In this document: in pieces, positions 27,105 through 49,462 of the stretch | How the letters are laid out: every line of letters starts with the position of its first letter | Numbering within the stretch: the stretch's first letter is position 1 | From: Pseudotabrizicola sp. | Lineage (GTDB): Bacteria; Pseudomonadota; Alphaproteobacteria; Rhodobacterales; Rhodobacteraceae | Length of the DNA: 64,000 nucleotides | Direction: 5' to 3' | Assembly: GCF_030684215.1 (NCBI RefSeq) | Contig: NZ_JAUXOV010000065.1 | Coordinates: 1 to 64,000, forward strand | The notes under the pieces: model-generated | The model's input: only the letters and a program-made list of their open reading frames with translations | Database searches by the model: none | What the model was told of the DNA's origin: nothing | Position numbers and translations under genes: made by a program

Positions 27105-27112
27105 GACAGATC

Positions 27113-31634: not shown

Positions 31635-34600
31635 TGCGCTGGTTGCTTCCCCTTGCGCTGATCGCTGCGCCTTGCGTCACCTTTGCGCAGGAAACCGAGG
31701 CTGAACGCACCGATCGCGGCACCATTGTCGCTTTTCTCGAAGACAACCTGTCCGGTGCGGGTCGCCAGATCACCCTGCGTGGCTTTCAGGGCGCGCTGTC
31801 GTCGCGCGCCAGTGCCACGCAACTGACCATCGCTGATGAAGATGGCATCTGGCTGACCCTGAACGATATTGTGCTGGATTGGTCGCGGTCTTCCCTGCTG
31901 TCGGGGCAGGTGTCGATCAACGAGCTGACTGCTGCAGAAATCATCATCGCCCGCGCGCCCCTGACAAACGATGCCACGCCGTCGCCAGAGGCAAAGGGCT
32001 TTGCCCTGCCCGAACTGCCCGTTTCGGTCGAGATATCGAAAATTTCGGCGGCGCGGGTGGTGTTGGGCGAAGCCCTGCTGGGTCAAACGGTTGAGGGCAG
32101 CATAGAGGCGTCTGTGTCGCTTGCTGGCGGCGACGGGTCGGCTGATCTGACCATCAACCGCACTGACGATGGCCCGGATGGGCGGATTGATCTGTCCGCA
32201 TTTTATGCCAACGCAACCACGCAGCTATCTCTGTCGCTGAACGTGGTCGAAGACGCGGGTGGCATTGCAGCCACGCTACTTGACCTGCCCGGCACCCCTG
32301 CTGTGACGCTGCAAATCAGTGGCGAGGGGCCGCTTGATAACTTCGCCTCGACCATCGCGCTGACCAGCGACGGGGCCGAGCGTCTGACAGGCACCGTCAC
32401 CCTGACGGGCACCGATGCTGGTGGCACCCTGTTCAACGCCGAACTGGGGGGCGATCTGGCCCCGCTGTTCGTACCGGAATATGCCGATTTTCTGGGCGAT
32501 ACCGTCAGCCTAAATGTCACCGGCCAACGCAGCACCGAAGGGCGGCTTGACCTCTCGGCGCTCGATCTGCGCGCCCGCTCGGTTGAATTGCGCGGTCAGG
32601 CTTTGATCGCCGCCGATGGTCTGCCCGAACTGATCGCGCTGAACGGCTTTCTGCGCGATCCTGATAACAATCCGGTTCTGATCCCCGGTTTCGATGCCGG
32701 GGTGTCGGTCCGCACCGCCCGGCTGGAGGTGGCCTATAACGCGGGCACAGACGAATCGTGGCGCGCGGTGGTCGAGGCCGAGAATCTCATCACGCCCGAG
32801 GCCAGCCTTGGGCGGCTTGATCTGCGCGGCTCTGGCCGGATATCGCGCACGCCCGTGGGCCGGGTCATCGGTGGCACCCTGACCCTGACGGGCAGCGGCA
32901 TTGCGCTGCAAGACCCAAATCTGGCGATGGCGATTGGCGATGCCGTCACCGCCTCTACCCGGTTGTTCTGGCAAGAAGGCACCGGTGTCACCCGGATCGG
33001 TGCGCTTGATCTGATCGCTGGCCCGGTCACCATCGCGGCAGGCGGCGAAATCGCGGGCCTTTCTGACGGGTTCCGGACCCGTGGCCGGATCAGCATTGAT
33101 GCCACTGACCTCGCCCCGTTGTCTGGCCTTGCCGGTCGCCCGCTGTCCGGTCGTGGCACCATATCGGCGGCAGGGCAGGGCAGCCCGTTGGCCGGTGATT
33201 TCGACGTTCAAGGCCGGATCGACGGCCAGAACCTGACCGTTGACATCGCACAAGCCGATAACTTTTTGCGCGGCCCGTCCAGCATCGCGTTCGACGTCCG
33301 CCGCGATACCACCGGCACCGTGCTGCGCAGCTTTGCCCTGCGCGCGCCGTCGCTTGCCGCCGATGGGTCAGGCACGCTGACCTCTGACACGGCCGACCTG
33401 TCTCTGACCCTGCGCATGGATGACCTCTCCCGCCTTGGGCCCGAATACGGTGGCAGCATCGCGGGCGATATGCGCCTGTCCGGCCCGCTGGCCAGCGGTC
33501 AGGCGCTGATCAAAGCCGATCTTTCCGCCAACGCCCTGCGCATCGGCCAGCCCGAGGTGGACCGCTTGCTGGCAGGGGCGTCACAGGTTTCGCTTGTCGC
33601 AAACCTGATCGACAACACCCTGATCGTCGAGCAGTTGACCGTCACCGCCCCCGGTGCCAGCGCATCGGCTGCCGGCACCTTGGCCAGCACCGGCAGCGAC
33701 GTCACAGCTCAGCTGACCCTGCAAGACCTGTCGCGCCTGCGCCCCGGTCTGGGTGGCCAGATCGCCGCCAACGCGACCTTCAAGGGCACGGCCGACACCG
33801 CCGCCCTGACCCTGAGCGCCGAGGCCAACGGCCTGCGCACCGGCCAGACCGAGGCAGACCGCCTGCTGACAGGCACCTCACAACTCAGCGCCGCCCTGCG
33901 GCTGGAGGGTGGGACGTTGCGCGTCGATGACCTGCGCCTCACCAGCCCGCAGATCACCGCGCAGGCCACAGGCCGCCTGACCGATGACCTCCGTGAAGTC
34001 GACCTTACTGCCCGTCTGGTCAACCTTGGCATTCTGCTCCCCGAATTTCCCGGCCCTGTCACCCTGTCAGGCACCGCCATCGATACCGGCAACGGCAGCG
34101 GCTATACCTTGTCTCTGGCAGGCACCGGGCCGGGCAGCATAAATGCCCGTGTGGCGGGCCAATTGGCCGCCAGTTTTGCCAGTGCCAACCTGACCATTCA
34201 GGGCACGGCACAGGCGGGTCTTGCCAACCCCTTTCTTGGCAGTCGTGTCGTGTCTGGCCCTCTAAGCGTTGATCTTTCGTTGAATGGCCCGCTTGCGCTG
34301 TCGTCTTTGTCCGGGCGTGTGGGCCTGTCGGGCGGCAATCTGGCTGACCCGTCCTTGCCGTTTTCGCTGCAAGCCATCGACGCTAGCGCCACGCTGTCGG
34401 GCGGTTCGGCCCAGATCGCAACCACCGCTAATGTTTCGACCGGGGGGCGCCTGTCCCTGAACGGCCCCATAAACCTTACCGCGCCATATCGGGGCGATCT
34501 TGCGCTGATCCTGTCCGGCGTCGTCCTGCGCGACCCGCAGCTTTATGAAACGCTTGCCAACGGCCAGTTGCGCATCAACGGCCCGCTTGCCGGGGGCGCG

Positions 34601-35479
34601 TTGATTTCGGGGCGTATTGCCTTGCCGCAGACAGAAATCCGCATTGCGGCCACCGGTCTTGGTGGCCAAGAGATGCTGGACGGGTTGCAGCACATCAATG
34701 AACCCGCCGCCGTGCGCGAAACCCGCCGCCGTGCCGGACTTATCGCTGACCCGAATGGCACAGGCCGCAGCACCTCCGCCCGCCCCTTTGATCTGGATAT
34801 TGAAATCTCGGCCCCCAATCAGCTTTTCATTCGGGGCAGGGGGCTTGATGCCGAGCTTGGTGGCACGCTGCGGCTGGCTGGCACCACGGCAAACATCATC
34901 CCTTCGGGCGCGTTCAACCTGATCCGGGGGCGGCTTGATATTCTAGGCCGCCGCCTGACCCTGACCGAGGCGTCGCTGCAACTCGAAGGCAACTTTGACC
35001 CGCTGTTGCGGGTGGTTGCCAGCAGCCAAAATGACAATGTGACCAGTTCTGTCGTGATTGACGGCTCAGCCACTGACCCTCAGGTCAGCTTCACCTCCAG
35101 CCCGCAACTCCCGCAGGAAGAGGTGCTGTCGCAGCTTTTGTTCGGCAGGCGTCTGGAATCGCTCTCTGCCTTGCAAGCCCTGCAACTGGCCAATGCTGTG
35201 GCCACTCTGGCGGGGCGCGGTGGTGAAGGTATCATCAGCCGCTTGCGCCAAGGCTTTGGTCTGGATGATCTGGATGTGCAGACCTCTGCCGATGGCACCA
35301 CGCAATTGACGGCTGGCAAGTATCTGACCGAGAATGTGTATTCCGAAGTTGTCGTCGATCAGAATGGCCAAAGCCAGATCAACCTGAACCTTGATCTGAC
35401 CGACAACCTGACACTGAAGGGCCGCGTGGGCGCCGATGGTAACACCGGGATCGGCCTGTTCTTTGAACGCGATTACTGA
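31634..35479 (+). CDS. tamB: Translocation and assembly module protein TamB
   Basis: 1281 residues. The N-terminus is a signal-like segment (MRWLLPLALIAAPCVTFAQ). A long, repetitive beta-rich region of AsmA/TamB type follows, with repeats of the form LSLTLRMDDLSRLGPE and TAQLTLQDLSRLRPG around 590-800. The C-terminal DUF490/TamB domain (about 940-1281) includes GRLDILGRRLTLTEASLQLEG and LTLKGRVGADGNTGIGLFFERDY, the conserved tail. It spans the periplasm and is thought to move phospholipids or barrel proteins with TamA. Its final 7 bases overlap the convergent TetR gene. Confidence 0.94.
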   Translation: MRWLLPLALIAAPCVTFAQETEAERTDRGTIVAFLEDNLSGAGRQITLRGFQGALSSRASATQLTIADEDGIWLTLNDIVLDWSRSSLLSGQVSINELTAAEIIIARAPLTNDATPSPEAKGFALPELPVSVEISKISAARVVLGEALLGQTVEGSIEASVSLAGGDGSADLTINRTDDGPDGRIDLSAFYANATTQLSLSLNVVEDAGGIAATLLDLPGTPAVTLQISGEGPLDNFASTIALTSDGAERLTGTVTLTGTDAGGTLFNAELGGDLAPLFVPEYADFLGDTVSLNVTGQRSTEGRLDLSALDLRARSVELRGQALIAADGLPELIALNGFLRDPDNNPVLIPGFDAGVSVRTARLEVAYNAGTDESWRAVVEAENLITPEASLGRLDLRGSGRISRTPVGRVIGGTLTLTGSGIALQDPNLAMAIGDAVTASTRLFWQEGTGVTRIGALDLIAGPVTIAAGGEIAGLSDGFRTRGRISIDATDLAPLSGLAGRPLSGRGTISAAGQGSPLAGDFDVQGRIDGQNLTVDIAQADNFLRGPSSIAFDVRRDTTGTVLRSFALRAPSLAADGSGTLTSDTADLSLTLRMDDLSRLGPEYGGSIAGDMRLSGPLASGQALIKADLSANALRIGQPEVDRLLAGASQVSLVANLIDNTLIVEQLTVTAPGASASAAGTLASTGSDVTAQLTLQDLSRLRPGLGGQIAANATFKGTADTAALTLSAEANGLRTGQTEADRLLTGTSQLSAALRLEGGTLRVDDLRLTSPQITAQATGRLTDDLREVDLTARLVNLGILLPEFPGPVTLSGTAIDTGNGSGYTLSLAGTGPGSINARVAGQLAASFASANLTIQGTAQAGLANPFLGSRVVSGPLSVDLSLNGPLALSSLSGRVGLSGGNLADPSLPFSLQAIDASATLSGGSAQIATTANVSTGGRLSLNGPINLTAPYRGDLALILSGVVLRDPQLYETLANGQLRINGPLAGGALISGRIALPQTEIRIAATGLGGQEMLDGLQHINEPAAVRETRRRAGLIADPNGTGRSTSARPFDLDIEISAPNQLFIRGRGLDAELGGTLRLAGTTANIIPSGAFNLIRGRLDILGRRLTLTEASLQLEGNFDPLLRVVASSQNDNVTSSVVIDGSATDPQVSFTSSPQLPQEEVLSQLLFGRRLESLSALQALQLANAVATLAGRGGEGIISRLRQGFGLDDLDVQTSADGTTQLTAGKYLTENVYSEVVVDQNGQSQINLNLDLTDNLTLKGRVGADGNTGIGLFFERDY

Positions 35480-36123
35480 ACCCGCAGCCCGTTCAGCACC
35501 AAAGCGGTGATTTCGGCACTGATATGATCCGCGTTCAGCGGGTCATCCGGTCCAAGCCCAGACATGAACCGTGCCTCGCTTCCCATCACAGCATAGGCCT
35601 CGGTCATCGCCCAGATGTGGAACTGCAACAACAACGGGTCCACCCGCCTGATCAGCCCCTGATCAGCCCAGCCCGTGATCAACGCAGACGCCCGCAGCGT
35701 CGCTTCACGCGATCCGGCCCAGACCTCTTGCAGCATCGGTGCGCCGCGCATCACCTCGCCGGTGAACATCCGCACCTCTGCCGGATGGCTCAGCGAAAAC
35801 CGTACCTTGCGCGCGATGTAATCCGACAAAAACGCCTCTGGCCCCTTGTCCAGCGCGATACCTTCAAACAACTCAGCCCAGATCGCGGTAATCTGGGACA
35901 GGGCTTCGGCATACAGCTCTTCCTTGCTGTCGATGTAATAATGCAGCTTGGTTTTAGAGATGCCCGCCCGATCAGCAATGCCTTGGGTTGATGCGCCCCG
36001 CAAGCCATGCTCGGCAAATTCCACAATCGCTGCGGCGCGGATCACATCGCGCAACTCGCCGCGCTTGCGGGCCAGATCGCCCCGGCCCACATGGCGAAGG
36101 CTTACGGCTTCAATGGCAGCCAT
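35473..36123 (-). CDS. RutR-like TetR-family regulator
   Basis: 216 residues. Residues about 23-70 are a TetR helix-turn-helix (VIRAAAIVEFAEHGLRGASTQGIADRAGISKTKLHYYIDSKEELYAEAL). The C-terminal domain (RMFTGEVMRGAPMLQEVW, ALITGWADQGLIRRVDP, LQFHIWAMTEAYAV) resembles the YcdC/RutR ligand domain. E. coli RutR senses uracil and thymine. It is the last gene of the nine-gene run, overlapping the RidA gene by 22 bases. The palindrome at 43261-43282 has a RutR-like core, so autoregulation of the operon is inferred. Ligand unproven. Confidence 0.88.
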   Translation of the reverse strand: MAAIEAVSLRHVGRGDLARKRGELRDVIRAAAIVEFAEHGLRGASTQGIADRAGISKTKLHYYIDSKEELYAEALSQITAIWAELFEGIALDKGPEAFLSDYIARKVRFSLSHPAEVRMFTGEVMRGAPMLQEVWAGSREATLRASALITGWADQGLIRRVDPLLLQFHIWAMTEAYAVMGSEARFMSGLGPDDPLNADHISAEITALVLNGLRVQ

Positions 36124-36557
36124 GCCGTCGCCTCCACCTCAATCAAAATATCATCCGATGGCATCATGGCGCTGACTTCTACCACAGTCGAGGCGGGCGG
36201 CGTGTCGGGAAAGAACATCCGCCGCACCGTGTTATAGCGCGGAAAGTCGTTCAGATTCTTGAAATATTGCACCAGCTTGAACACATCATTCATGGACCCG
36301 CCCGCCTGTTCCATCGTGGCGCGGATGCGGTCGAACACATACCAGCTTTGCGCCAGAACAGGCCCATCCTTGGCATCAACCGAAAACTCCCCGGTTTGGC
36401 CAATCGTCGGGCCAATCCCGTCAGGCAGATCGCCAAAGCCGCGAATGATCCGCCCGGCGCCGGGGTCCACCGCGATAACCCCGGATAGGAAAATGAAATC
36501 CCCCCGGCGCACCCAAGCAGAATAGCGGGCCAAAGGGGCGGCAGTGGGATCAGACAT
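36102..36557 (-). CDS. RidA-family protein
   Basis: 151 residues. RidA/YjgF/RutC fold: YSAWVRRGDFIFLSGVIAVDPG, QSWYVFDRIRATMEQAGGSMNDVFKLVQYF, RYNTVRRMFF and SALTVVEV-like STVVEVSAMMPSDDILIEVEATAWL. Family members hydrolyse reactive enamine/imine intermediates or, as RutC, act on aminoacrylate-like products of pyrimidine breakdown. The usual Arg near the end of RidA (in xKVEIE) is not obvious, so it may be a divergent subgroup. It starts 2 bases after the oxidoreductase gene. Confidence 0.88.
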   Translation of the reverse strand: MSDPTAAPLARYSAWVRRGDFIFLSGVIAVDPGAGRIIRGFGDLPDGIGPTIGQTGEFSVDAKDGPVLAQSWYVFDRIRATMEQAGGSMNDVFKLVQYFKNLNDFPRYNTVRRMFFPDTPPASTVVEVSAMMPSDDILIEVEATAWLPLKP

Positions 36558-36559
36558 GG

Positions 36560-37159
36560 TTACACCGGAATGGTTGAAAGACTGCGTTCGACCTTACCCA
36601 AAAAGACCTTACGATCGTCTTCGGTGACGTGGTTCATGTTGTAAAGCTGTTTCCAGATCACCCGGCAGCGCGGGCTGAACAAGGGCCGCAGCCCGCGTGT
36701 CCACAAAGACCTCCCCGGATCGCGGATCAGCCTGATCCACCACCACGGACTGCCTGATGTGGTGATACCGACCAACAGCCTGATATTTTGCAACTTCGGC
36801 TTGGTGCGCTTTTGCTTGCCATCGGCCACCTCAAAGGTGATCCCCGGCAGCCAGACCCGCTCCAGCCAGCCCTTGAGCATGGCAGGCGGACCATAATACC
36901 ACGTCGGGTAAATCACGACCAAGCCCTCGGCCCATTGCAGGTTGTCTACATGCTCGGGGTGCTTGGCGATGATCGCGGCGGTGTCGGTCAGATATTGCCG
37001 CCGTTCTTCGGTGGACAGAACCGGGTTGAAGTTCTCGGCATACAGATCATGGCAACGCAATTCATGGCCCGCCGCACGCAGGGTGCGACAGGCGGTTTCA
37101 TACAGCGCCGCGCCAAAACTTTCCGGGCACGGATGAGAAAAGACGACCAGAAGGCGCAT
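36560..37159 (-). CDS. Flavodoxin-fold NAD(P)H oxidoreductase
   Basis: 199 residues. NQO1/MdaB/KefF-like fold: LLVVFSHPCPESFGAALYETA at the N-terminus binds FMN/FAD phosphate, and LVVIYPTWYYGPPAMLKGWLERVWLPGITFEV is the flavin/quinone-site block. It probably reduces a flavin or quinone with NAD(P)H. Here it may supply reducing power or reduce a ring intermediate, as RutF supplies flavin in the Rut system, though it is not homologous to RutF. It lies 12 bases after the binding-protein gene. Confidence 0.88.
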   Translation of the reverse strand: MRLLVVFSHPCPESFGAALYETACRTLRAAGHELRCHDLYAENFNPVLSTEERRQYLTDTAAIIAKHPEHVDNLQWAEGLVVIYPTWYYGPPAMLKGWLERVWLPGITFEVADGKQKRTKPKLQNIRLLVGITTSGSPWWWIRLIRDPGRSLWTRGLRPLFSPRCRVIWKQLYNMNHVTEDDRKVFLGKVERSLSTIPV

Positions 37160-37171
37160 GGCGCAGACCCC

Positions 37172-38176
37172 TTACTTCGGCATCAGGTCCATACCGACCT
37201 TTTTGTTCACGAACCGCGCGGTGGCGACCTTTTCAATATCGACCGACCCGGCCGCAAGAATCCCAGACTCGACCGCCAGATCGTAGAACGCCTGAACCCG
37301 GCCCATATCAATTGCGCCAATCCCCATTTCGGTCTGATACCCGGTGCCGATGATGCCAAGCGCTTTCATCTGCTCAACCTCGGCGTTCAGCTTTTCCACC
37401 GTCTGTTCGGGGTTGTCGGCGATGATTGCGGCACTGCCTGCCGAATTGTCGTTGTACAGGAAGTTATACCAGCCAATCGTGGACGCATCGACGAAGCGCT
37501 GCACCAGATCGGGGTTTTCCTCGACCATCTGTACCCGCGCCTCAATGGTGGTGGAATAGGTGTTCCAGCCATTGTCGGCCAGCAAGAACCACTCCGGCTC
37601 TGCCCCGGCAGCGGCGGCATAGATCGGCTCTGCGGTGCCGTAGCCTTGCTGCACCATCTTCTTGTCGGTCAGGTATTCCGCAAGGTTAAAGCCATATGGC
37701 TTTAGCTGTTCATCCTTGAAGCCTTTGGATTTCACCATCCACTGCCAATAACTGAACTGCCCGTCTTTAGAGACAAGGATCGTCGGCGCGTTCACCAGAT
37801 CATCAAACGATGCATACTCGCCTTTGTGTGTCAGCATCACCTGCGGATCTTTTTCGAAATAGGCCGCGACCACGATGGTCGGAATCTCGTTGCGAACATT
37901 GTCCATCGACAGCAAAAGATTTCCCGCCATCAGGAAATCCACTTTGCCTGCGGGCAGCATGGGCCGGTTGTTGACCTGCGGCCCGCCTTGCTGAATCTCT
38001 ACCTCCAGCCCGTATTTGGCGTAAGTCCCGTCTGCCATCGCCTGATAGAACCCGCCATGCCCACCTTGGGCCAGCCAGTTGGTGGCGAACACCACCTTAT
38101 CCTGCGCCATAGCGCCGCTTGCCACCACGGTTGCCGCCACGAATGTTGCCACTGTGGCCAGTATACGCGTCTTCAT
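37172..38176 (-). CDS. NMT1/THI5-like ABC transporter substrate-binding protein
   Basis: 334 residues from the ATG at 38176, with AGGGAAAGGGA upstream. A signal peptide (ILATVATFVAATVVASGAMAQ) leads to an NMT1-type binding fold: VVFATNWLAQGGHGGFYQAMADGTYAKYGLEVEIQQGGPQVN and FLMAGNLLLSMDNVRNEIPTIVVAAYFEKDPQ. The family carries pyrimidine precursors, nitrate, taurine or riboflavin-type ligands. Aromatic residues (SYWQWMVKS, EWFLLADNGW) suggest a planar ring ligand. It partners the permease and ATPase of the same operon. Confidence 0.92.
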   Translation of the reverse strand: MKTRILATVATFVAATVVASGAMAQDKVVFATNWLAQGGHGGFYQAMADGTYAKYGLEVEIQQGGPQVNNRPMLPAGKVDFLMAGNLLLSMDNVRNEIPTIVVAAYFEKDPQVMLTHKGEYASFDDLVNAPTILVSKDGQFSYWQWMVKSKGFKDEQLKPYGFNLAEYLTDKKMVQQGYGTAEPIYAAAAGAEPEWFLLADNGWNTYSTTIEARVQMVEENPDLVQRFVDASTIGWYNFLYNDNSAGSAAIIADNPEQTVEKLNAEVEQMKALGIIGTGYQTEMGIGAIDMGRVQAFYDLAVESGILAAGSVDIEKVATARFVNKKVGMDLMPK

Positions 38177-38205
38177 CGCAATCCCTTTCCCTGTTGTAAT
38201 ATGTG

Positions 38206-39573
38206 TCACGCCTTGGCCATATCCGGCGTCCAGCCCCGGGTTTTTCCCGGATTCATCAATCCATGCGGGTCAGCCTCGCGTTTGAAGTCGATCTGCGTGG
38301 TGTCGATTTCCTTCATCCCGCCGTCTTCAATCGTGATGACATGCGGGTCATAGATCGTGCAGCCATCCAGCCGTTCCATCTCGGCGATGATCTGATACAT
38401 CCGGTCGCGGCTGGTCCAGCGCACCAAGGGCAGGGCAAAAATCTGCACCTCGCTATGCAGCCGCGCCATTTCGTGATGCATCAAGACCTCATCGCCATAG
38501 CGGGCGATCTGCGCCATCACCAAGCCCGGATCAAACGGGCTGGGGTAGGCAACCTGAAGGTAGCTCCACACTCCCGGCTCGTGTTTCAGCGCCTGCAAGG
38601 TCGTGTGGTTCCACCCGCATTCCCACGCGGGCGGCAACCGCTGCGCTTCAAGATCATGCAGCGTGCCGCTCAGGCTTACCGTGCCGCCCATCGCGGCCAC
38701 CCGTGCGTTGAAATCATCCATCGCATCCGGCGCGATCATCGAAAACACCGCGTCTTTGTCCACTGGAAAATACTCGGCCAACCGCTTGTAAAACGGCGCA
38801 ATCCGCCCCTCTACCACCGTCATCAGATAGGCATCCAGCCCCGCCGCCTGAGCGTCGGCCGCAAAGCGCAACGCGGAGTCATAGCCATCAAACAGCGCAA
38901 TCGTATGCACCCAGTCGGTCGCTGGGACCAAGGCATAATCCAGCGCGGTGATGATCCCGTTGGTGCCATAGGCGTGCTGCACCTTCATGATGTCAGCCCC
39001 GCGCAACTCAATCACGCGCGGTACTTCCTCAACCGTCACCATCCGTAGCCAGGTGATGTTCTCGCCATCGCGCAGCATCCCGTTGCGCAGCGACCCGATG
39101 CCGCCAGACCCGCCCGAGACAAAGCCGCCCATGGTGGCAAAGCGCTTGGTCGATGGGAACATCGACAGCATTTGCCCGCTTGCCCCCACGGCCGTTTCCA
39201 CCCGTTCCATTCGCGCACCCGCCTCACAGATCACCCGGCCGGGGCCGATGTCGATCACTCGGTCCAGCTTGGTCATCTCAAGGATGATCCCGCCCTCCAT
39301 CGGCACGCATTGCCCATAATTCCCGGTGCCGCCGCCGCGCACCGTGATAGGCAGGCGCAACCGCGCCGCCGCCGCCGCCACGGTCATCACCTCGGCCTCG
39401 GTCCGGGGCGTCACCACCAGATCGGCGGCGCGATGATCCAGCAGGTCTTTCAGAATGGGCGAATACCAATAGTAATCCTTTGATTTCGCTTCCAGCAGCC
39501 GCGCCTCATCCGAACAGGGCACCTCACCGATGGCGGCCTTGAAAGCAGCCAGTTTTTCAGCACTCACGCTCAT
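38206..39573 (-). CDS. FAD-linked oxidase (PCMH/VAO type)
   Basis: 455 residues. The N-terminal FAD-binding domain (about 45-220) has VVTPRTEAEVMTVAAAAARLRLPITVRGGGTGNYGQ and FATMGGFVSGGSGGIGSLRNGM, the typical FAD phosphate and pyrophosphate loops. The rest is a less conserved substrate domain ending DPHGLMNPGKTRGW, the GlcD-like closing motif. It probably oxidises a hydroxy or amine group on the imported compound or a breakdown product. It overlaps the amidohydrolase upstream by 4 bases and ends 29 bases before the binding-protein start. Confidence 0.9.
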   Translation of the reverse strand: MSVSAEKLAAFKAAIGEVPCSDEARLLEAKSKDYYWYSPILKDLLDHRAADLVVTPRTEAEVMTVAAAAARLRLPITVRGGGTGNYGQCVPMEGGIILEMTKLDRVIDIGPGRVICEAGARMERVETAVGASGQMLSMFPSTKRFATMGGFVSGGSGGIGSLRNGMLRDGENITWLRMVTVEEVPRVIELRGADIMKVQHAYGTNGIITALDYALVPATDWVHTIALFDGYDSALRFAADAQAAGLDAYLMTVVEGRIAPFYKRLAEYFPVDKDAVFSMIAPDAMDDFNARVAAMGGTVSLSGTLHDLEAQRLPPAWECGWNHTTLQALKHEPGVWSYLQVAYPSPFDPGLVMAQIARYGDEVLMHHEMARLHSEVQIFALPLVRWTSRDRMYQIIAEMERLDGCTIYDPHVITIEDGGMKEIDTTQIDFKREADPHGLMNPGKTRGWTPDMAKA

Positions 39574-40739
39574 GCAGCAGTTCCTTGCGTCATCGCCGCG
39601 CCCGCCCGGTAAATCCGGCGTGGCGCGCGGGGGTTGCTCAGGGCCTCGGTCCAGTCGGCCCCTTCGATCAGTATGAAATCCGCAGGTGCACCGACTGTCA
39701 GCCGTGCAGGGGGCAGCCCCAAGGCGTGGGCCGCATCCCCCGCAATCGCGCCCAGCCAGTCACCTGGCGACAGGTGCAGCGTCAGGCAGGCCAGCCGCAG
39801 CATCTCCACCGGGTCATGCGCGCCGTAGGGGTAGAACGGGTCGCGCACATTGTCCGATCCGAACAGCACCGTGACCCCCGCCGCGCGCAATTCCTGCGCC
39901 GGGGCCAGCCCTCGCAACCGCGGGCTGCGACCGGGGGCCATATCCTGCAAATGCAGGTTGGTGGTGGGCAATATGGTCAGCGCCAGCCCCGCCTCGGCAA
40001 TCTGCGCGATGGCCCGGTCGGCATCCGCCCGGATTGCCAGCGAACAGGCGTGGCCGCACAACACCCACCCTGCCATGCCATGTGCACGCGTCAGCCGGGC
40101 CACCTCATCAATCGCCACGGCATCGGCATCGAGGCCCTCATCGACATGGAAGTCGAGGCGCAGCCCATGATCCGCCGCCAGCCGGAACACCCGGCCCAGA
40201 TGGTCGGCGTAATTGTCGTGGCGATAAATGAACGTGCCCAGAACCGCGCCATCTGCCGCCACCCGCGCCGCAATCCCGGGCCCATGATCCGGGTCGCCCA
40301 GAATATCCAGCGACACCAGCGCCGCGCGTTGCAGCGTCACCTCGGTATCCGCCTCGCCCATCACCGACCAGGCCAGCGGCACGCCCGGCTCGGTCCAGTC
40401 GACATGGCTGCGGATCACGCCGACCCCATTGGCCACCGCATCCGCCAGCCCGCGTGTGATACGCGCGCGCAGGTCGTCGGCGCTCCACGCAGCCTTGTCC
40501 GCCGCCATCGCCTCAATCGCGCCAAACAGCCCCGGCTTGGCCGCGCGGGCGCGATGCGCGGTAAAGCATTTGTCCAGATGCACATGCGCATCCACCGACA
40601 GCGGCATTGCCACCGCCGCCGCAGGCGCCTGCGTTGGCGTCAGAGCCACAATCCGGCCCCCCGCCACACTCAGCGCGACCGTCTGTCCGTCAATCAACAC
40701 TGGGCCCAGCTCAATGCTCACGCCGGATCTCGCTTTCAT
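39570..40739 (-). CDS. Cytosine-deaminase-like amidohydrolase
   Basis: 389 residues. Metal-dependent amidohydrolase of the CodA/AtzC branch: DAHVHLDK with His52 and His54, DFHVDEGLD with His198 and Glu201, CGHA with His230, LPTTNLHLQD, and GSDNVRDPFYPYG with Asp296. The sequence order matches cytosine deaminase closely. Relatives deaminate cytosine, isoguanine, creatinine or melamine-type rings, so a cyclic amidine or imide is expected. It overlaps the permease gene by 29 bases, so a later start may be used, and overlaps the FAD-oxidase gene by 4 bases. Confidence 0.9.
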   Translation of the reverse strand: MKARSGVSIELGPVLIDGQTVALSVAGGRIVALTPTQAPAAAVAMPLSVDAHVHLDKCFTAHRARAAKPGLFGAIEAMAADKAAWSADDLRARITRGLADAVANGVGVIRSHVDWTEPGVPLAWSVMGEADTEVTLQRAALVSLDILGDPDHGPGIAARVAADGAVLGTFIYRHDNYADHLGRVFRLAADHGLRLDFHVDEGLDADAVAIDEVARLTRAHGMAGWVLCGHACSLAIRADADRAIAQIAEAGLALTILPTTNLHLQDMAPGRSPRLRGLAPAQELRAAGVTVLFGSDNVRDPFYPYGAHDPVEMLRLACLTLHLSPGDWLGAIAGDAAHALGLPPARLTVGAPADFILIEGADWTEALSNPRAPRRIYRAGAAMTQGTAA

Positions 40740-41565
40740 GCCAATGCCCCAGAACCCGGCGCGACAGCCACGCAGTCGCCAAAAAGATCACCACCCCCAG
40801 AAGCGACACCAGAACCAGCGCCGCAAACATCCGCGGAATCTCATTCCGAAACGACGATTCAATGATCCGGCTGGCCAACCCGGTATTCTTGCCCGCAGCG
40901 CCTGCCACAAACTCGGCCACCACAGCCCCGATCAGGCTAAGCCCGCCCGCCACCTTCAGCGCCGCCATGAACGACGGCAGCGCACTTGGGGCCAACAGAA
41001 ATCGCAACCGCTGCCACGGCGTCGCGCGGTACAGCGTGAACAGATCGCGCAGGTTGTGATCCGCACTGCGCAGCCCGATCACCGTGCCCGACAGAATGGG
41101 AAAAAACGCCACAATCCACGCACAGATCAACAGGGCGGCAAAGGTGCTGTCCACATAGATCAGGATCAGCGGCGCAATCGCCACCACGGGCGTTACCTGC
41201 AAGATCACGGCAAAGGGAAACAGGCTCATCTCAACTGCGCGAGACAGGGCAAACAACGCGCCAAGCAGCACCCCCCCGATAATCGCCAGCCCCAGCGAAT
41301 ACACCGTCAGCTTCACCGTAAACCACGCCGACCCCATCAGGGATGGCCCATCGGTCCACAGGGTTTGCGCGATCCGACTGGGTGCCGGGATCAGGTAATG
41401 CGGGATCTGATAGGCCCGCACCACCCATTCCCAGCCACCAATTGCCACCACCAGCGCAAGGACAGGCAACACCCATGTCAGCACCCGCTCGCGCCGCTCA
41501 CGCGCCAGCGCAGCGGCATTGACCGGAGCATCCGGGGCAGGCTCAATGATCGATATGCTCTGCAT
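40711..41565 (-). CDS. ABC transporter permease (SsuC/TauC/ThiX type)
   Basis: 284 residues with about six membrane helices. The EAA loop is visible as TLYRATPWQRLRFLLAPSALPSFMAALKVAGGLSLIGAVVAEFVAGAAG, the typical binding-protein-dependent permease motif of the nitrate/sulfonate/pyrimidine-precursor family. It overlaps the ATPase gene by 23 bases and the amidohydrolase gene by 29 bases. A run of seven Cs is at 41271-41277 within it. Confidence 0.92.
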   Translation of the reverse strand: MQSISIIEPAPDAPVNAAALARERRERVLTWVLPVLALVVAIGGWEWVVRAYQIPHYLIPAPSRIAQTLWTDGPSLMGSAWFTVKLTVYSLGLAIIGGVLLGALFALSRAVEMSLFPFAVILQVTPVVAIAPLILIYVDSTFAALLICAWIVAFFPILSGTVIGLRSADHNLRDLFTLYRATPWQRLRFLLAPSALPSFMAALKVAGGLSLIGAVVAEFVAGAAGKNTGLASRIIESSFRNEIPRMFAALVLVSLLGVVIFLATAWLSRRVLGHWHESEIRREH

Positions 41566-42319
41566 CCAGCGTCCCTTTCAAACTGTCCGAAATCCGCCGC
41601 GCCTGTGCGCTGAACTCTGTCGAGATGCGCCAATCCTCGGTGCGGGGCCACGGCACATCGACCACCAGATCATCCGCCACCCGACCGGGCCGCGCGGCCA
41701 TCACCACGACGCGGGTGGACAGATAGACGCTTTCAAACACCGAATGGGTCACGAATATCACCGTCAGCCCCTGCTCTGCCGCAAGTCGCACCACATCATT
41801 GTTCAGCTTTGACCGCGTCATCTCGTCCAGCGCGGCAAAGGGTTCGTCCATCAGCAAGATCCGGGGCCGCGTCACCATCGCCCGAGCGATTGACACCCGC
41901 ATCTTCATGCCGCCCGACAATTCGCGCGGATAGGCTTGCGCGAATTTCGTCAGCCCCACCTCACGCAACGCTTGCTCAACCCTTGGCCGCGCATCCGCCT
42001 TTGTCACCCCCGCCAGCCGCAAAGGCAAAAACACGTTGTCATAGACTGTGGCCCACGGCATCAGCGTGGGTTCCTGAAACACAAAGCCCAGATCCTGCTC
42101 GGTCTTGCCCGCCGCAGGCGCAATGCTGATCGTGCCCGAAGTCACCGGCAACAGCCCGGCAATCATCTTCAGCGCCGTTGATTTCCCACAGCCCGACGGT
42201 CCCAGAAAACTGATGAAATCGCCCTCATTGATCGTCAGCGTCATGTCTGACACCGCCAGCGTGTCATTGCCGAACCGCTTCGACACCCGATCCATGCGAA
42301 TGATCGGATCACCCTTCAT
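41543..42319 (-). CDS. ABC transporter ATPase (SsuB/TauB type)
   Basis: 258 residues. Walker A GPSGCGKST, Q-loop FVFQEPTLMPWATVYDNV, signature LSGGMKMRVSIARAM, Walker B ILLMDEPFAALDE and switch HSVFESVYLS are all intact. The QEPTLMPW sequence is typical of nitrate/sulfonate/pyrimidine-precursor importers. Its ATG overlaps the creatininase-family stop by 4 bases. It energises uptake with the adjacent permease and binding protein. Confidence 0.94.
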   Translation of the reverse strand: MKGDPIIRMDRVSKRFGNDTLAVSDMTLTINEGDFISFLGPSGCGKSTALKMIAGLLPVTSGTISIAPAAGKTEQDLGFVFQEPTLMPWATVYDNVFLPLRLAGVTKADARPRVEQALREVGLTKFAQAYPRELSGGMKMRVSIARAMVTRPRILLMDEPFAALDEMTRSKLNNDVVRLAAEQGLTVIFVTHSVFESVYLSTRVVVMAARPGRVADDLVVDVPWPRTEDWRISTEFSAQARRISDSLKGTLDAEHIDH

Positions 42320-43131
42320 GCAAAGGCGTCCGGGTTTGCGCGCGTGTCCAGAAACGACAGCGGCATGCGGTGCACCTCTTGTAGCAGCGTCACGATCCGG
42401 GCGGCGGCATGGTCAATCGCGCGTTGACCCTTTTCCGCCGTGGCCTGCGTCGCATCGCCCGCCGCGCCTGCCGCGTTCATGTCCTGCATCTGCCACGCCA
42501 GACGGCCCGCCGGTGTCAGGCCCAACAGCTGGTTCTCCTCCGCCAGACGCGCATTCTGCGGCACGAAATTTCGCGCCCGGTCCATCCGCACCAGATCCGG
42601 ATGCAGCGCCAGCATCACGCTGGTCTCCAGATCGCCCGCATGTATCCCGTGCCGTTCCTCATCCGGGGAAATCAGCCCCTCGGGCAGACCCATGGCGAAC
42701 CAGTTTGCCGCCACCACCAGCATCTTGTGCTTGATCCGCAAATCGCGCGCCACGATGTCCATCGGCGCAATCTGCCCGCCATGACTGTTCAGAAAAACCA
42801 GTTTGCGCACCCCCGCCGACGCCACCGAGTCGCCGATTTCCGACCACATCGCCATCAGCGTTGCCGCCGAAAACGTCAGCGTGCCGGGCCAGGCGGAATG
42901 CTCATTTGACTTGCCCACCGACAGCGTGGGCAAAAACACCACCGGCAGATCAGGCGCCAACAGCGGCACCACGGCCGCCACCATGCCATCAACAATCGCT
43001 TGGTCCACCGACAACGGCAAATGCGGCCCATGCTGTTCGACCGCCCCGACGGGCAGCAACGCGATCAATTCACTGCGCGGCAGCTCGGCAAAATCCTTGG
43101 CGGTATATTGCGCCCAAAACCGATGCTTCAT
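42316..43131 (-). CDS. Creatininase-family amidohydrolase
   Basis: 271 residues from the ATG at 43131, with GGAGG upstream. Creatininase/MftE fold: PVGAVEQHGPHLPLSVD has metal ligands Glu32, His34 and Asp43; LNSHGGQ has His117; HAGDLETS has His164 and Glu169. Members open cyclic amides (creatinine, some pterin intermediates) or cleave peptides. It is the first gene of the nine-gene operon and so is directly behind the candidate operator at 43261-43282. The true substrate is unknown. Confidence 0.92.
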   Translation of the reverse strand: MKHRFWAQYTAKDFAELPRSELIALLPVGAVEQHGPHLPLSVDQAIVDGMVAAVVPLLAPDLPVVFLPTLSVGKSNEHSAWPGTLTFSAATLMAMWSEIGDSVASAGVRKLVFLNSHGGQIAPMDIVARDLRIKHKMLVVAANWFAMGLPEGLISPDEERHGIHAGDLETSVMLALHPDLVRMDRARNFVPQNARLAEENQLLGLTPAGRLAWQMQDMNAAGAAGDATQATAEKGQRAIDHAAARIVTLLQEVHRMPLSFLDTRANPDAFA

Positions 43132-43260
43132 TCGGCACCTCCGGCCCGGTTTAAACCGACGCTTAGGTCGTCTGAGCATAGCAGGGTGGGCAGTGTCATC
43201 ATCGTCTCACCTCGGATCAAGGCTCAGCTGACCTGAACTTGACCCGAGGATGAACCATTG

Positions 43261-43282
43261 TGTCAAACCATTTGGTTCGACA
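43261..43282 (-). promoter_or_regulatory. Candidate operator of the RutR-like regulator with -35 overlap
   Basis: Half-sites TGTCAAACCA and TGGTTCGACA flank TT; they are inverted repeats with a single mismatched position. The core AACCA-TT-TGGTT resembles the RutR site (TTGACCA-NN-TGGTCAA) in its CCA-NN-TGG centre. On the minus strand the sequence contains TTGACA, a perfect -35, so a bound repressor would block transcription. It lies about 130 bases before the creatininase-family start; no good -10 was found. Confidence 0.6.
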
Positions 43283-43324
43283 TCTGCAGATTGTTTTTTA
43301 TGCCCATTCAGCAGGCGCATTCAG

Positions 43325-43348
43325 GCCCGTGAAGCGCAGGCTTCGGGC
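43325..43348 (-). terminator. Weak hairpin after the LOG-family gene
   Basis: GCCC/GGGC and GAAGC/GCTTC arms pair across a short loop with one bulge, 14-37 bases past the LOG-family stop. There is no immediate T-run, but TAAAAAAC occurs further down the minus strand. It may end LOG-gene transcription before the operon promoter. Confidence 0.3.
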
Positions 43349-43361
43349 TGACTGAGAAGGA

Positions 43362-44168
43362 TCAGCGCCAGCCGTCAATCGCCGCCACGGCCTCCTCGGC
43401 GGTTTCGACGTATTGGAACAGGTCAAGATCCTCCGCGCTGATGGTGCCGGCTTCGGCCAGTGCCTCCCAATTGATGATCTTGTCCCAGAACTCCCGGCCA
43501 AACAGCAGGAAGGGAATCGGCTTCATCCGTTGAGTCTGGATCAGCGTCAGCGTCTCGAACATCTCATCCAGCGTGCCAAAGCCGCCGGGGAACACGCAGA
43601 TTGCCTTGGCCCGCATCAGGAAGTGCATCTTGCGAATGGCAAAGTAGTGGAAGTTGAAACACAGGTCCGGCGTCACATAGGGGTTGGGCGCCTGTTCATG
43701 CGGCAGCACGATATTCAACCCGATCGACTGGCCGCCCGCTTCATGCGCGCCCAGATTGCCCGCCTCCATCACGCCCGGCCCGCCGCCGGTAACGATCACA
43801 TTCTCGCGGCCATAGCTTTCCATGCTGCGCTCGGTCATCAGCTTGGCAAAGCGCCGCGCTTCTTCGTAATAGCGCGACAGTTCCGCCAGTGCGGGCGTCC
43901 GGCCCGCACCTGCCGTCGGCGGAATCCGCGCGCCGCCGAACAAAACGATGGTCGATTCAATCCCGCGCTCGTCCATCACAATCTGCGGTTTCAGCAACTC
44001 CAGCTGTAACCGCACCGGGCGCAATTCCTCTCGCGTCATAAAATCCGGGTCGGCAAACGCCAGCCTGTAGGCGGGCGCGCGGGTCTGGATGGTATCGGGC
44101 GTGCGGTCGGCGGCCTGCACGTCTTCGACGCTGTCGCGAAACGGGTGGGCGCGGGGTTCGTCTTTCAT
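43362..44168 (-). CDS. LOG-family (TIGR00730-type) nucleotide-binding protein
   Basis: 268 residues from the ATG at 44168, preceded by AAAGGCAG; ATGs at 44183 and 44201 are alternatives. Rossmann-like LOG fold: IVTGGGPGVMEAGNLGAHEAGG and ICVFPGGFGTLDEMFETLTLIQ, the PGGxGT-xx-E motif of cytokinin-riboside phosphoribohydrolases. Bacterial LOG proteins cleave nucleoside monophosphates at the N-glycosidic bond. The N-terminal 80-residue extension is a feature of the longer subgroup. It is divergent from dapD. Confidence 0.93.
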   Translation of the reverse strand: MKDEPRAHPFRDSVEDVQAADRTPDTIQTRAPAYRLAFADPDFMTREELRPVRLQLELLKPQIVMDERGIESTIVLFGGARIPPTAGAGRTPALAELSRYYEEARRFAKLMTERSMESYGRENVIVTGGGPGVMEAGNLGAHEAGGQSIGLNIVLPHEQAPNPYVTPDLCFNFHYFAIRKMHFLMRAKAICVFPGGFGTLDEMFETLTLIQTQRMKPIPFLLFGREFWDKIINWEALAEAGTISAEDLDLFQYVETAEEAVAAIDGWR

Positions 44169-44248
44169 AGGCTGCCTTTGCATTGCGTGATCTCTCCCCA
44201 AGCCTTATAGGCAGGGCGCAACAGGACCAATCAAAAATGGGTGACAGC

Positions 44249-45073
44249 ATGTCAAACGCCGCCTTGGAAACCGCCATCGAGGCCGCGTGGGAAGTCCGCG
44301 ACAGCCTTACCCCCGCCACCAAAGGCGAAGCCCGCGACGCGGTTGAAGCCACGCTGGCCGCCCTTGGCGCAGGCACATTGCGCGTGGCCGAAAAGCGCGG
44401 TGCCGATTGGCATGTGAACCAATGGGCGAAAAAGGCCGTGCTTCTGGGCTTCCGGCTGCAAGACATGGGCCTGCAATCGGGTGGCCCGCAGGGGTCGTCA
44501 TGGTGGGACAAGGTTGACAGCAAATTTCACGGCTGGGGCGAAGATGACTTCCGCTCCGCTGGCTTTCGCGCTGTGCCAAACTGCATCGTGCGCAAATCGG
44601 CTCACATCGCCAAGGGCGTGGTCCTGATGCCGTCTTTCGTCAACCTCGGCGCCTTTGTTGATGAAGGCACCATGGTTGACACATGGGCCACCGTAGGATC
44701 GTGCGCGCAGATCGGCAAGAACGTCCATCTGTCTGGCGGCGTCGGCATCGGTGGCGTGCTCGAACCAATGCAGGCAGGCCCCACCATCATCGAAGACAAC
44801 TGCTTTATCGGTGCGCGGTCCGAAGTGGTTGAAGGCTGCATCGTGCGCGAAGGCTCTGTCCTTGGCATGGGCGTGTTCATCGGTAAATCGACCAAGATCG
44901 TTGACCGCGAAACCGGCTCTGTAACCTATGGCGAGGTGCCCTCCGGGTCGGTCGTTGTGGCAGGCTCGATGCCATCGAAAAACGGTATCAACCTGTATTG
45001 CGCCGTGATCGTGAAAAAGGTCGATGCGCAAACCCGCTCGAAAACCTCTATCAACGAGCTGTTGCGCGACTGA
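44249..45073 (+). CDS. dapD: Tetrahydrodipicolinate N-succinyltransferase
   Basis: 274 residues from the ATG at 44249 ([18 protein letters not shown]), the same length as E. coli DapD; an ATG at 44237 is an alternative. It succinylates tetrahydrodipicolinate in lysine/diaminopimelate synthesis. The left-handed beta-helix hexapeptide repeats are visible ([64 protein letters not shown]). dapE of the same pathway lies 3.2 kb downstream, with two opposite-strand Hint genes in between. Confidence 0.97.
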
Positions 45074-45095
45074 ACCGCCCCTGAAAGGCCAGCCC

Positions 45096-45431
45096 ATGAC
45101 CGATGAAAAGCCCGCAAAAACCAGCCGCCAGCAGGTGTATACCCTGCTGGTGCAGGTTGGCCGCAAACCCGGTGACGATCTTCCCGCCAAAGCCACGGGC
45201 GGGGCTTTGATGTGCTATGCCAGTGGTGTGGACGAGGCCGAGGCGGTGCGTGAAACGGTGGCGATCCTCAAGCAGGCCGAACTGGCGGTGCTAGAGGTTG
45301 AAGGCCATGGCTCGCTTGACGAACAAAAAGCCGCCGGGGCAGAAATTCCTCCCGAAGAAGAGGCGCTGATGCTGCGCGCGCTGGAGGAAAACTCGGTCAT
45401 CGTGGCCCAGATGACTGCGCTTTACGACTAA
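45096..45431 (+). CDS. Conserved small protein of unknown function
   Basis: 111 residues from the ATG at 45096, with GAAAGG upstream, 22 bases after dapD, so probably cotranscribed with it. No signal peptide or membrane segment is seen. It is acidic toward the C-terminus (EIPPEEEALMLRALEENSVI) and has a YTLLVQVGRKPGDDLPAKATGGALMCYASGVDEAEAVRETVAILKQAEL core that looks like a small alpha/beta domain. I do not recognise a function; gene position suggests a lineage-conserved partner of dapD. Confidence 0.8.
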   Translation: MTDEKPAKTSRQQVYTLLVQVGRKPGDDLPAKATGGALMCYASGVDEAEAVRETVAILKQAELAVLEVEGHGSLDEQKAAGAEIPPEEEALMLRALEENSVIVAQMTALYD

Positions 45432-45434
45432 GGT

Positions 45435-46427
45435 TCAGGCCGCGCCAAACAGGCTGCGCCGCGCCATCAGGCTGACCAGTTGCTGCGCCTCAAACGGCAA
45501 CAGGACAGGCCGGGGCGGTTCCGCCCTGAACCCATGGCTAAGCAGTTTCAGACCATCTGCCAGCAGCAATTCCGGCAAACCAAGGTCAACCGTCACGCAG
45601 TCAATTGCGGCCTGCCGCCCGTCTATCCGGGCAATCGTTCCATTGGCCAGCGCGTCGGCGCGGACCAAGACTTCCTCAACACCGAACATGTATTCCACTT
45701 CGGCCCCGTTCAGCGCAACCAGCTGATCGGCGGCCAGCAACACATCACTGCCCTGACCCAGATAGGGCGCGCGCATGATGACCGGCGCAAAGCTGCCCCT
45801 GCTGGGCAGATTCAGGCGACTGACCCGCAAGACCGGCTGAAGGCCATTGTCTGCCGTATGAACCAGATCCCCCGCCCGCAAAGCCCCGGCAGCGACCGGC
45901 CCGCGCGCTGTGTCAACTGGGGTTCGCAAACCCAGCCACGGGGCGCGCTCTGGCGGGCGGGCGCCGGTTGTCACGCCAAACCACAACAGCGACGCATGAC
46001 GCAGCGCTGCCCCATCTCTGCGGCACAATGCAGCCAATTCATCCGGCGACAACGCGATCGGGCCTATACCGGTGTTTTGGCATTCCTCACCCATCCCGAT
46101 ACGGCCAAAGCTAAGGGTCCAACGCCCCGTGCGCCGGTTCCAGCCATAGGTGATCCGCGCCGCGCCAAGGCCAAAGGGCAAGGGTCCGGGCAGAACGTGC
46201 CGCCGCATCATCTCGCCGTTGCGGTGCAGCACCACAATCCCGGCTTGCGGGTCGGCAAAGATCGAAAAGCTGCGCCTGTCGCCATCATCCTGATGCCACT
46301 CCAGCAAGACAGTGCCAGCGCCCAGTGGCAACGTGGTCTCACAGATGAACAAGCCTTGCTCCAACGGAAGCCGGTCGCCGTTTGGCAGGGTAAGGTCAGA
46401 CAGCGCCAGCCAATCCTCCATGATCAC
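45435..46427 (-). CDS. Degenerate Hint-domain protein
   Basis: 330 residues. The start is GTG at 46427 (GTGA overlap with the upstream stop) or ATG at 46421. The N-terminal half (about 1-165) looks like a beta-rich jelly-roll of unknown role. The C-terminal half follows the Hint_2 layout (VAAGALRAGDLVHTADNGLQPVLRVSRL, FAPVIMRAPYLG, DVLLAADQLV, EEVLVRADALANG, LLSHGF, LLPFEAQQLV) but lacks the catalytic Cys of CFxxGT and has Gln where the H-R-x-L His would be. It is probably inactive and may assist or mimic the neighbouring Hint protein. Confidence 0.8.
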   Translation of the reverse strand: MIMEDWLALSDLTLPNGDRLPLEQGLFICETTLPLGAGTVLLEWHQDDGDRRSFSIFADPQAGIVVLHRNGEMMRRHVLPGPLPFGLGAARITYGWNRRTGRWTLSFGRIGMGEECQNTGIGPIALSPDELAALCRRDGAALRHASLLWFGVTTGARPPERAPWLGLRTPVDTARGPVAAGALRAGDLVHTADNGLQPVLRVSRLNLPSRGSFAPVIMRAPYLGQGSDVLLAADQLVALNGAEVEYMFGVEEVLVRADALANGTIARIDGRQAAIDCVTVDLGLPELLLADGLKLLSHGFRAEPPRPVLLPFEAQQLVSLMARRSLFGAA

Positions 46428-48004: not shown

Positions 48005-48313
48005 GACTGCCTCCACCCGTTGAAGACAGAGCATCATGTGCGGTCAGGCGGATGCCTGCCGGAGCATTTTGTCGGATTGGGTGCGTTGACCCTGCTCTGC
48101 CCTGCCTCTGGGACTTATAGTTTTATGAATGATTATCAGAGTTTTGCCATAAGTCATCCATCTTTTGGCCACAGTGCTTCGGTCGCTGCGCCGTAGTGAA
48201 AGAGCGTGTCGCAACAGCAACAATGGGATGCATCGCCGCTAGCGTTTGCGCAAAGGTTGCAGCAGGTCCGCCCTGTCGGTATTCCTGCGCCAAACCCATG
48301 CCGGAGACCCGCA
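48005..48313. other. 309-base intergenic region between Hint gene and dapE
   Basis: The region separates divergent genes and should hold both promoters. A 7-base inverted repeat GACTTAT (48112-48118) and ATAAGTC (48149-48155) brackets an AT-rich stretch and could be an operator. I saw no convincing small gene. Confidence 0.4.
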
Positions 48314-49462
48314 ATGCCCAAGCCAGTTGATCCTGTCGCCCTGACCGCAGATCTGGTGCGCTGCCCCTCAGTCACCCCGGTAGAGGGCGGGGCACTGGTC
48401 TTGTTGCAGGCCCTTTTGTCCGATGCGGGCTTTGACTGCACACGGGTTGACCGGGGCGGGGTGGCCAACCTGTTCGCCCGCTGGGGTACGCGGGGGGCAA
48501 ACCGCTCGTTTGGCTTCAACGGGCATACTGATGTCGTGCCCGTCGGTGATGCGGCCGCCTGGACCCATGATCCGTTCGGAGCCGAGATCGTCGATGGCTG
48601 GATGTATGGCCGTGGCACGACCGACATGAAATCCGGCGTTGCGGCCTTTGTCGCAGCCGCCATCGATTTCGTCCGCGACACCCCGCCCGATGGCGCCGTT
48701 ATCCTGACAATCACCGGCGATGAGGAAGGCGCATCGGTCGACGGCACAGTGGCTTTGCTCGACTGGATGGCCACCCAGGGCGAGCGCATGACACATTGTC
48801 TGGTCGGCGAACCGACCTGCCCGAATGACATGGGCGAGATGATGAAGATTGGTCGCCGTGGTAGCATGACCGCCTTTGTCACCGCAACCGGGGTGCAAGG
48901 CCATTCCGCCTATCCGCACCGGGCCAAAAACCCGATGAGTGCGTTGGTCAAGCTGCTGGCAAAGCTGGAGGAAAGGCCACTGGATGCGGGAAGCGCACAT
49001 TTTGATGCCTCGACACTGGCGATAACCACGATTGATTGCGGCAACCCCGCCAATAACGTGATCCCCGCGCGCGGTACGGCCACAGTAAACATCCGGTTCA
49101 ATGATCTGCATTCGGGCGACAGCCTAAGCCGTTGGGTGCAGGACTGCGCCCAGACAGTGCAGCACGAATCCGGCGTTCAGTTCGATGTGCGCCTTAGTAT
49201 TTCGGGCGAAAGTTTCCTGACTCCGCCCGGCGATTTCTCGGCCATGGTGGCCCGCGCGGTGCAAGCTGAAACCGGCCGCGTGCCGGTTACCTCAACCTCG
49301 GGCGGCACCTCGGACGCGCGCTTTGTGAAAAATCACTGCCCGGTGGTCGAATTCGGTCTGGTGGGCAAGACCATGCATCAAGTCGATGAACGGGTGCAGG
49401 TCGACCAGATCGGCCAACTCAAGACCATCTATAGCCGCATTTTGCAGGACTACTTTGCATGA
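48314..49462 (+). CDS. dapE: Succinyl-diaminopimelate desuccinylase
   Basis: 382 residues from the ATG at 48314, with CGGAGA upstream; an in-frame start further up lacks family similarity. M20 metallopeptidase: [29 protein letters not shown] and [12 protein letters not shown] carry the zinc ligands and catalytic Glu; HCLVGEPT and [27 protein letters not shown] follow. It makes LL-diaminopimelate for cell wall and lysine. It overlaps the downstream GNAT gene by 4 bases (ATGA). Confidence 0.97.

Follow-up and report, generated by a model that had tools for sequence, protein, structure and literature searches.

The 64,000-nucleotide stretch of Pseudotabrizicola sp. DNA analysed here (contig NZ_JAUXOV010000065.1, hereafter the window) carries, between positions 35473 and 43131, nine minus-strand open reading frames (ORFs), all found at the coordinates of an ORF list drawn up beforehand. 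They encode a creatininase-family hydrolase, the ATPase and permease of an ATP-binding cassette (ABC) importer, an amidohydrolase resembling the cytosine deaminase CodA, an oxidoreductase linked to flavin adenine dinucleotide (FAD), the importer's binding protein, a flavodoxin-fold oxidoreductase, a RidA-fold protein and a TetR-type regulator resembling RutR (Table 1). An earlier interpretation made from the letters alone (the sequence-only reading) had described closely packed genes of these families, and both the packing and the families, which we assigned with Pfam and NCBIfam models, proved correct. Successive genes overlap by 4, 23, 29, 4 and 22 bases or are separated by 29, 12 and 2 bases, with the binding-protein gene taken to start at 38176. 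The nine-gene operon is real, compact and conserved, and it looks like a RutR-type nucleobase-catabolic operon whose route we could match to no described pathway. Two reading frames are longer than the genes given here: the creatininase frame stays open as far as 43179, although a codon-based call and the conserved start of the orthologues favour the ATG at 43131, and the binding-protein ORF extends to 38209.

Table 1. Genes of the operon and its putative operator, in window coordinates
Feature	Coordinates	Strand	Family or match
Creatininase-family hydrolase (crn), first gene, proposed amide/ring hydrolase	42316..43131	-	PF02633, E 7.5e-75
ABC importer ATPase	41543..42319	-	PF00005
ABC importer permease	40711..41565	-	PF00528
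CodA-like amidohydrolase (amh), proposed deaminase or cyclic-amidine hydrolase	39570..40739	-	PF07969; PRK07583, 295.2 of 403 bits
FAD-linked oxidoreductase, PF01565 type (fad)	38206..39573	-	PF01565; solved relative 6v42/6v43
NMT1/THI5-like periplasmic binding protein (sbp)	37172..38176	-	PF09084
Flavodoxin-fold NAD(P)H oxidoreductase (fldx)	36560..37159	-	PF02525
RidA-fold protein, apparently without catalytic Arg (rid)	36102..36557	-	PF01042
RutR-like TetR regulator	35473..36123	-	PF08362 and PF00440; best PDB match RutR 3loc
Putative two-box operator, 122 bases upstream of the crn ATG	43254..43276	-	Sole 0-mismatch site in genome

All nine genes recur, in unchanged order, in a metagenome-assembled genome (MAG) titled Gemmobacter nectariphilus (locus L002) and in a Cypionkella MAG (L003), with protein identities of 73-96%, so that the set is not a chance assembly. 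Among 295 sampled genomes of the family, the amidohydrolase and the FAD enzyme were each detected in 103 (E<=1e-40; own genome included) and both together in 100, against 36 expected under independence, a figure that is only a yardstick because the sampled genomes are related. The two genes lie within 300 bp of each other in 96 of the 295, and this co-occurrence likewise rules out chance assembly. The creatininase-family protein gave a match at E<=1e-20 in 121 family genomes, with stronger matches in 100, and the stronger match, the amidohydrolase and the FAD enzyme all fall within 10 kb in 78. As counter-cases, 12 of 114 FAD-enzyme places had no amidohydrolase and seven amidohydrolase places had no FAD enzyme within 10 kb, some of these places lying at contig ends. 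A sample of the phylum yielded the FAD enzyme in 32 of 398 genomes, ten of these from the window's own family.

The gene order, first noted in this one stretch, is thus conserved across Rhodobacteraceae and beyond. Annotated plasmids of Pseudosulfitobacter, Nitratireductor and Salipiger, as well as a record labelled Roseateles (an unverified label), show the order creatininase, ATPase, permease, amidohydrolase, FAD oxidase, binding protein and TetR, with small insertions; on the Salipiger plasmid, an NAD(P)H oxidoreductase gene stands ahead of the TetR gene. Rearranged versions with a LysR gene occur in Rhizobium, Klebsiella, Pantoea and Agrobacterium, the Agrobacterium locus giving no amidohydrolase match, and a rearranged Palleronia locus has neither TetR nor LysR nearby. 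One scan of viral contigs with the FAD-enzyme alignment found no relative.

The sequence-only reading had also connected the operon with RutR while finding no RutA or RutB, and both parts held. Across the 81-contig assembly, no match exceeded the curated cut-off for RutA (best 39.9 of 498.3 bits) or RutB (best 119.9 of 377.95 bits, on another contig), which rules out membership of the Rut pathway. With that pathway (RutA-G, RutR) the operon shares a RutR-like regulator retaining part of the uracil contacts, a putative RutR-like operator, a RidA/RutC-fold protein and a flavin-type reductase, whereas it lacks RutA and RutB above cut-off and adds an ABC importer along with three enzymes: an FAD-linked oxidase, a hydrolase of the creatininase family and an amidohydrolase resembling CodA. 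Elsewhere in the assembly, two RutB-like isochorismatase-fold matches lie about 1.5 kb apart (G000:C66:16566-19398; L097 and L098), both below cut-off and one with an internal stop in the match frame.

The link to RutR became firmer than first claimed, as both the ligand pocket and the putative operator resemble those of RutR in part. Among solved structures, RutR is the best relative of the window regulator (3loc, E 1.9e-29), which reaches 138.2 of 368 bits against the curated RutR model; the other two of the genome's three RutR-like regulators are also below this cut-off, at 205.4 and 198.3 bits. Those two adjoin genes for an N-carbamoyl/allantoate-type amidohydrolase and an AptA-like omega-aminotransferase, a neighbourhood that suits pyrimidine-product catabolism. 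RutR contacts uracil through W77, Y97 (via water), W167, Q171 and Q179 of the partner chain, as given in PMC10891134, and at these five positions the window regulator has W, Y, W, E and E. We compared 12 operon-linked regulators (window, L002, L003, L034, L035, L037, L038, L076, L079, L092, L093 and L094): W167 is kept in all 12, W77 and Y97 in 11 each, and Q171 and Q179 in eight each, with Glu in the other four.

Upstream of the creatininase gene lies the two-box element ACCAAATGGTTTGACACAATGGT, which has no second perfect match in the genome; the next best site has 3 mismatches. Allowing up to 3 mismatches, the motif precedes 8 of the 12 TetR-linked operons (the window's and seven others), a proportion that measures conservation and is not an independent test, since the motif was drawn from the same loci. 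None of 10 regions from nine LysR-type or other loci contained it (best 8 mismatches), and 200 mononucleotide shuffles of each of three regions gave 6, 5 and 7 mismatches at best. The right-hand box reads TTGACC[A/G]NN[T/C]G.. in L034, L035, L038 and L094, but TTGACACAATGG in the window, and we take the TTGACC-type palindrome to be the RutR operator consensus. L079 has a single RutR-like box, and L093 a related double site, read by eye, before the transketolase-like gene that adjoins its creatininase gene. The boxes TTGACCGAATGGTCA, TTGACCATACGGTCA and TTGACCGGATGGTCA stand upstream of the loci of the genome's other two RutR-like regulators.

Cytosine deaminase is the nearest solved structure to the amidohydrolase. 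H52, H54, H198, E201, H230, D296 and N297 are invariant in 23 of 23 sequences, the first six being the metal ligands and the catalytic His, Glu and Asp of CodA. The position of CodA Gln156, which we assume to be a cytosine-contact residue, holds Gln in none of the 23, and that of CodA Asp314 holds Asn in every one. The Asp314 position governs the choice between cytosine and 5-methylcytosine, according to PMC6186785, in which the 5-methylcytosine deaminase carries Ser there, unlike the Asn of the window-type enzymes. The window amidohydrolase has the fold family and the metal and catalytic His, Glu and Asp in common with both CodA and that deaminase (4r7w/4r85). Because two cytosine-contact positions differ, it is not a plain cytosine deaminase: the cytosine-deaminase-like hydrolase of the sequence-only reading stands as to its catalytic residues and fails as to its substrate contacts.

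The creatininase-family protein is the only PF02633 match in the genome and falls below every NCBIfam model that it matched, namely MftE (119.6 of 172 bits), TIGR04448 creatininase (98.9 of 235) and IolN (61.4 of 245). It thus belongs with the creatininase, MftE and IolN proteins by its Pfam family and departs from each member model, and the score against TIGR04448 rejects it as a creatininase converting creatinine to creatine. The FAD enzyme has a close solved relative over nearly its full length, the FAD/FMN-containing dehydrogenase 6v42/6v43 (E 2.3e-116).

The RidA-fold protein has a solved relative in 3lyb (E 1.7e-59) and reaches 40.6 of 169.1 bits with the RutC model. Its identity to the Klebsiella and Pantoea copies is 63-65%, compared with 35-37% for the FAD enzyme at those loci, and its identity to the L079 copy is 49%. 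At the position that we read by eye as the RidA arginine, from a motif presumed to mark it, all 8 printed C-terminal ends have Ser. The conserved Arg is required for imine hydrolysis, and about 10% of RidA proteins carry Ser there, as stated in PMC4433059. The protein therefore seems to be without the imine-hydrolysing arginine, and a standard imine hydrolase role was rejected; the earlier assignment to the RidA family holds for the PF01042 fold and apparently not for this residue. A RidA-fold protein of this kind offers a lead to a further Rid function.

For the importer, a profile of 20 binding-protein sequences matched six sequences of solved structure at E<=1e-5: 4nmy, the best, an ABC solute-binding protein whose name gives no ligand; 3ix1, the N-formyl-4-amino-5-aminomethyl-2-methylpyrimidine binding protein; two THI5; and two THI13. 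Five of the six are thiamin-pyrimidine proteins and none is named as sulfonate-, taurine- or nitrate-binding. The window protein by itself matched only 4nmy, weakly and over 60 residues. The binding protein, ATPase and permease recall ThiXYZ, the formylaminopyrimidine importer (ThiY, 3ix1), whereas the operon has no thiamin genes and no riboswitch match, and its importer is linked to catabolic enzymes. A scan of positions 30000-50000 of the window found no Rfam family at gathering score, and hence no thiamin pyrophosphate (TPP) riboswitch there, so that TPP riboswitch control was discarded.

The evidence gives good support to a nitrogen-containing ring as the substrate, and the regulator and the importer's binding protein speak for a pyrimidine-like one. 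Our leading interpretation, which we hold tentatively and a little short of probable, is an inducible operon that takes up and catabolises a substituted pyrimidine-like ring from outside the cell, and not uracil, thymine or cytosine; we infer the substituted ligand, the enzyme order and the ring opening. The RutR-like repressor would sit on the two-box operator until released by a pyrimidine-type ligand, and the ThiY/THI5-like importer, assigned by family, would bring in the ring. The CodA-like amidohydrolase, with its catalytic residues in place, might then remove an exocyclic amino group or hydrolyse an amidine C-N bond. Its product could be oxidised by the FAD enzyme with the flavodoxin-fold reductase as the redox partner, and the creatininase-family hydrolase might cleave a ring amide. 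The RidA-fold protein would act at a late step, probably other than standard imine hydrolysis. The deaminase logic finds support in L085, where the amidohydrolase is missing and a PRK12393-type relative of 8-oxoguanine deaminase is present. Of the separate route for taking up and opening a nitrogen ring that had been proposed, the catabolic and importing character stood; ring opening is a prediction, and creatinine or hydantoin is a less likely ligand than a pyrimidine. The altered regulator pocket, the binding protein and the operator provide three separate handles on the substrate.

Several observations weigh against this substituted-pyrimidine interpretation. The binding protein resembles ThiY/THI5 only distantly (E 3e-8 to 8e-13). 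When the FAD enzyme and the binding protein were modelled with AlphaFold, each from three close sequences, the mean predicted local distance difference test (pLDDT) values were 35.6 and 31.4, respectively. All five RutR pocket residues are present in 5 of the 12 operon-linked regulators, compared with 25 of 26 paralogues outside the operon (exception L126), which come mostly as two per genome from one genus, some cut by contig ends, and exclude L128 (a poor fragment) and L127 (apparently from the genome of L002). The complete pocket is therefore a family trait from which the window clade (window, L002 and L003) departs by two Gln-to-Glu changes, and with both Gln replaced the ligand there is not simply uracil. 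The LysR-linked operons use a different class of regulator, so that an argument from RutR need not extend to every member. The two-box motif is missing at the tested place in four of the 12 TetR-linked regions (L076, L079, L092 and L093). Finally, variant loci carry hydroxylases of several folds, which would fit purine-like or N-methylated rings as well.

Those hydroxylases bear on an alternative that is unlikely yet far from negligible, namely that the operon acts on a ring of the purine or pteridine type, such as an oxidised or methylated purine: hydroxylases would make an oxo-purine, the amidohydrolase would deaminate it, and the FAD enzyme and creatininase-family protein would open the rings. 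The variant loci comprise 20 regions together with the annotated plasmids, and as the regions were picked by hand, the numbers of accessory genes are not rates. They contain extra oxygenases of four folds, with Rieske proteins in L077 and L085, TauD proteins in L082 and L089, 2OG-Fe(II) proteins in L042 and L044 and a partial one in L077, and a molybdenum hydroxylase in L089, besides an annotated PaoABC set beside L036. The Rieske, TauD and molybdenum enzymes speak for a purine, as does a PucR-type helix-turn-helix regulator in L080. PRK12393-type proteins point the same way: the one in L085 is a 50% identical relative, the one in L044 (Klebsiella) accompanies the amidohydrolase and scores 822 of 543 bits, as against 375 of 532 for 8-oxoguanine deaminase, and a weaker relative (35%) accompanies the amidohydrolase in L084. 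Isochorismatase-fold proteins occur in L085 and L077, and the L085 copy, equally like biuret hydrolase and RutB, fits purines and pyrimidines alike. However, only a minority of the examined loci carry these accessory genes and the window operon carries none of them, while regulator and binding protein indicate single-ring pyrimidines. The oxygenases, PRK12393-type and isochorismatase-fold proteins taken together suit a nitrogen ring, be it a pyrimidine or a purine. The redox helper also seems to vary, being of flavodoxin fold in the window, a 2Fe-2S ferredoxin in L035 and L038, and a PDR/VanB-type reductase in L040, L044 and L075.

A five-membered cyclic guanidine or ureide (creatinine-, hydantoin- or glycocyamidine-like) appears improbable. 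The amidohydrolase would then be an iminohydrolase and the creatininase-family protein the ring opener, and some cytosine-deaminase relatives do act on creatinine. The presence of a creatininase-family gene agrees with this, and the two Glu in the window regulator pocket would suit a cationic amidine. Nevertheless, the creatininase model score is low, as given above, the binding protein resembles binders of six-membered pyrimidines, and both Gln are kept in 7 of the 12 operon regulators.

A bolder form of the pyrimidine interpretation, which we regard as doubtful, holds that bacteria widely use the operon and its variants to break down the 4-amino-2-methyl-pyrimidine moiety of thiamin (hydroxymethylpyrimidine and its relatives) as a nutrient. 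ThiY-like import would be followed by deamination by the amidohydrolase, side-chain oxidation by the FAD enzyme and ring opening by the creatininase-family protein. A 2-methyl instead of a 2-oxo ring would explain why the cytosine-contact Gln is lost and why Asn has replaced Asp.

It is very unlikely that the unusual parts simply make up an ordinary pathway for uracil, thymine, cytosine or 5-methylcytosine. The RutR-like regulator, the cytosine-deaminase-like enzyme and the RidA/RutC fold would be expected of it, but RutA and RutB are under cut-off, two other regulators of the genome match RutR better and adjoin genes fitting pyrimidine-product catabolism, and the Gln presumed to contact cytosine is absent from all 23 amidohydrolases compared. 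Salvage of a thiamin pyrimidine precursor, suggested by the ThiY/THI5-like binding protein, can be set aside almost entirely, as none of the nine genes is for thiamin biosynthesis, the Rfam scan of positions 30000-50000 gave no TPP riboswitch at gathering score, and two hydrolases and an oxidase side by side suit breakdown.

We looked for a prior description of the gene set with a known substrate and found none in open-licence PubMed Central literature, which misses most subscription journals; the structure codes 6v42/6v43 likewise led to no paper there. Since those structures were solved, a close homologue of the FAD enzyme has already been studied by somebody, and the pathway may already be known. 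With the amidohydrolase-FAD enzyme pair in about one third of the sampled family genomes and related clusters in Rhizobium, Agrobacterium, Pantoea and Klebsiella, the compound consumed is probably a common nitrogen-ring compound.

Some features of the clusters and their surroundings may be recorded as well. A transketolase-like protein of 794-795 aa is encoded next to the creatininase gene at L093:12597-14981, where the two overlap, and at L094:2850-5237, and apparently just a C-terminal remnant of such a gene lies upstream in L092; this protein may belong to the pathway. One cluster (L083:6885-13130) has two copies of the FAD enzyme on opposite strands and two flavodoxin-fold genes. Chemotaxis-receptor genes lie near several clusters, such as L036:11547-13424 (annotated) and L076:13915-15558 (by similarity), and the receptors might sense the same compound. 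In the window itself, positions 22126-28138 hold an apparent sugar-type ABC importer, a sugar-kinase-like gene and a gene for a 433-aa protein, all judged from their first residues only. Closer to the operon, a plus-strand gene pair occupies 29820-35479, and its second member (1281 aa), which we take to be TamB-like, converges on the TetR gene with a 7-base overlap of their ends.

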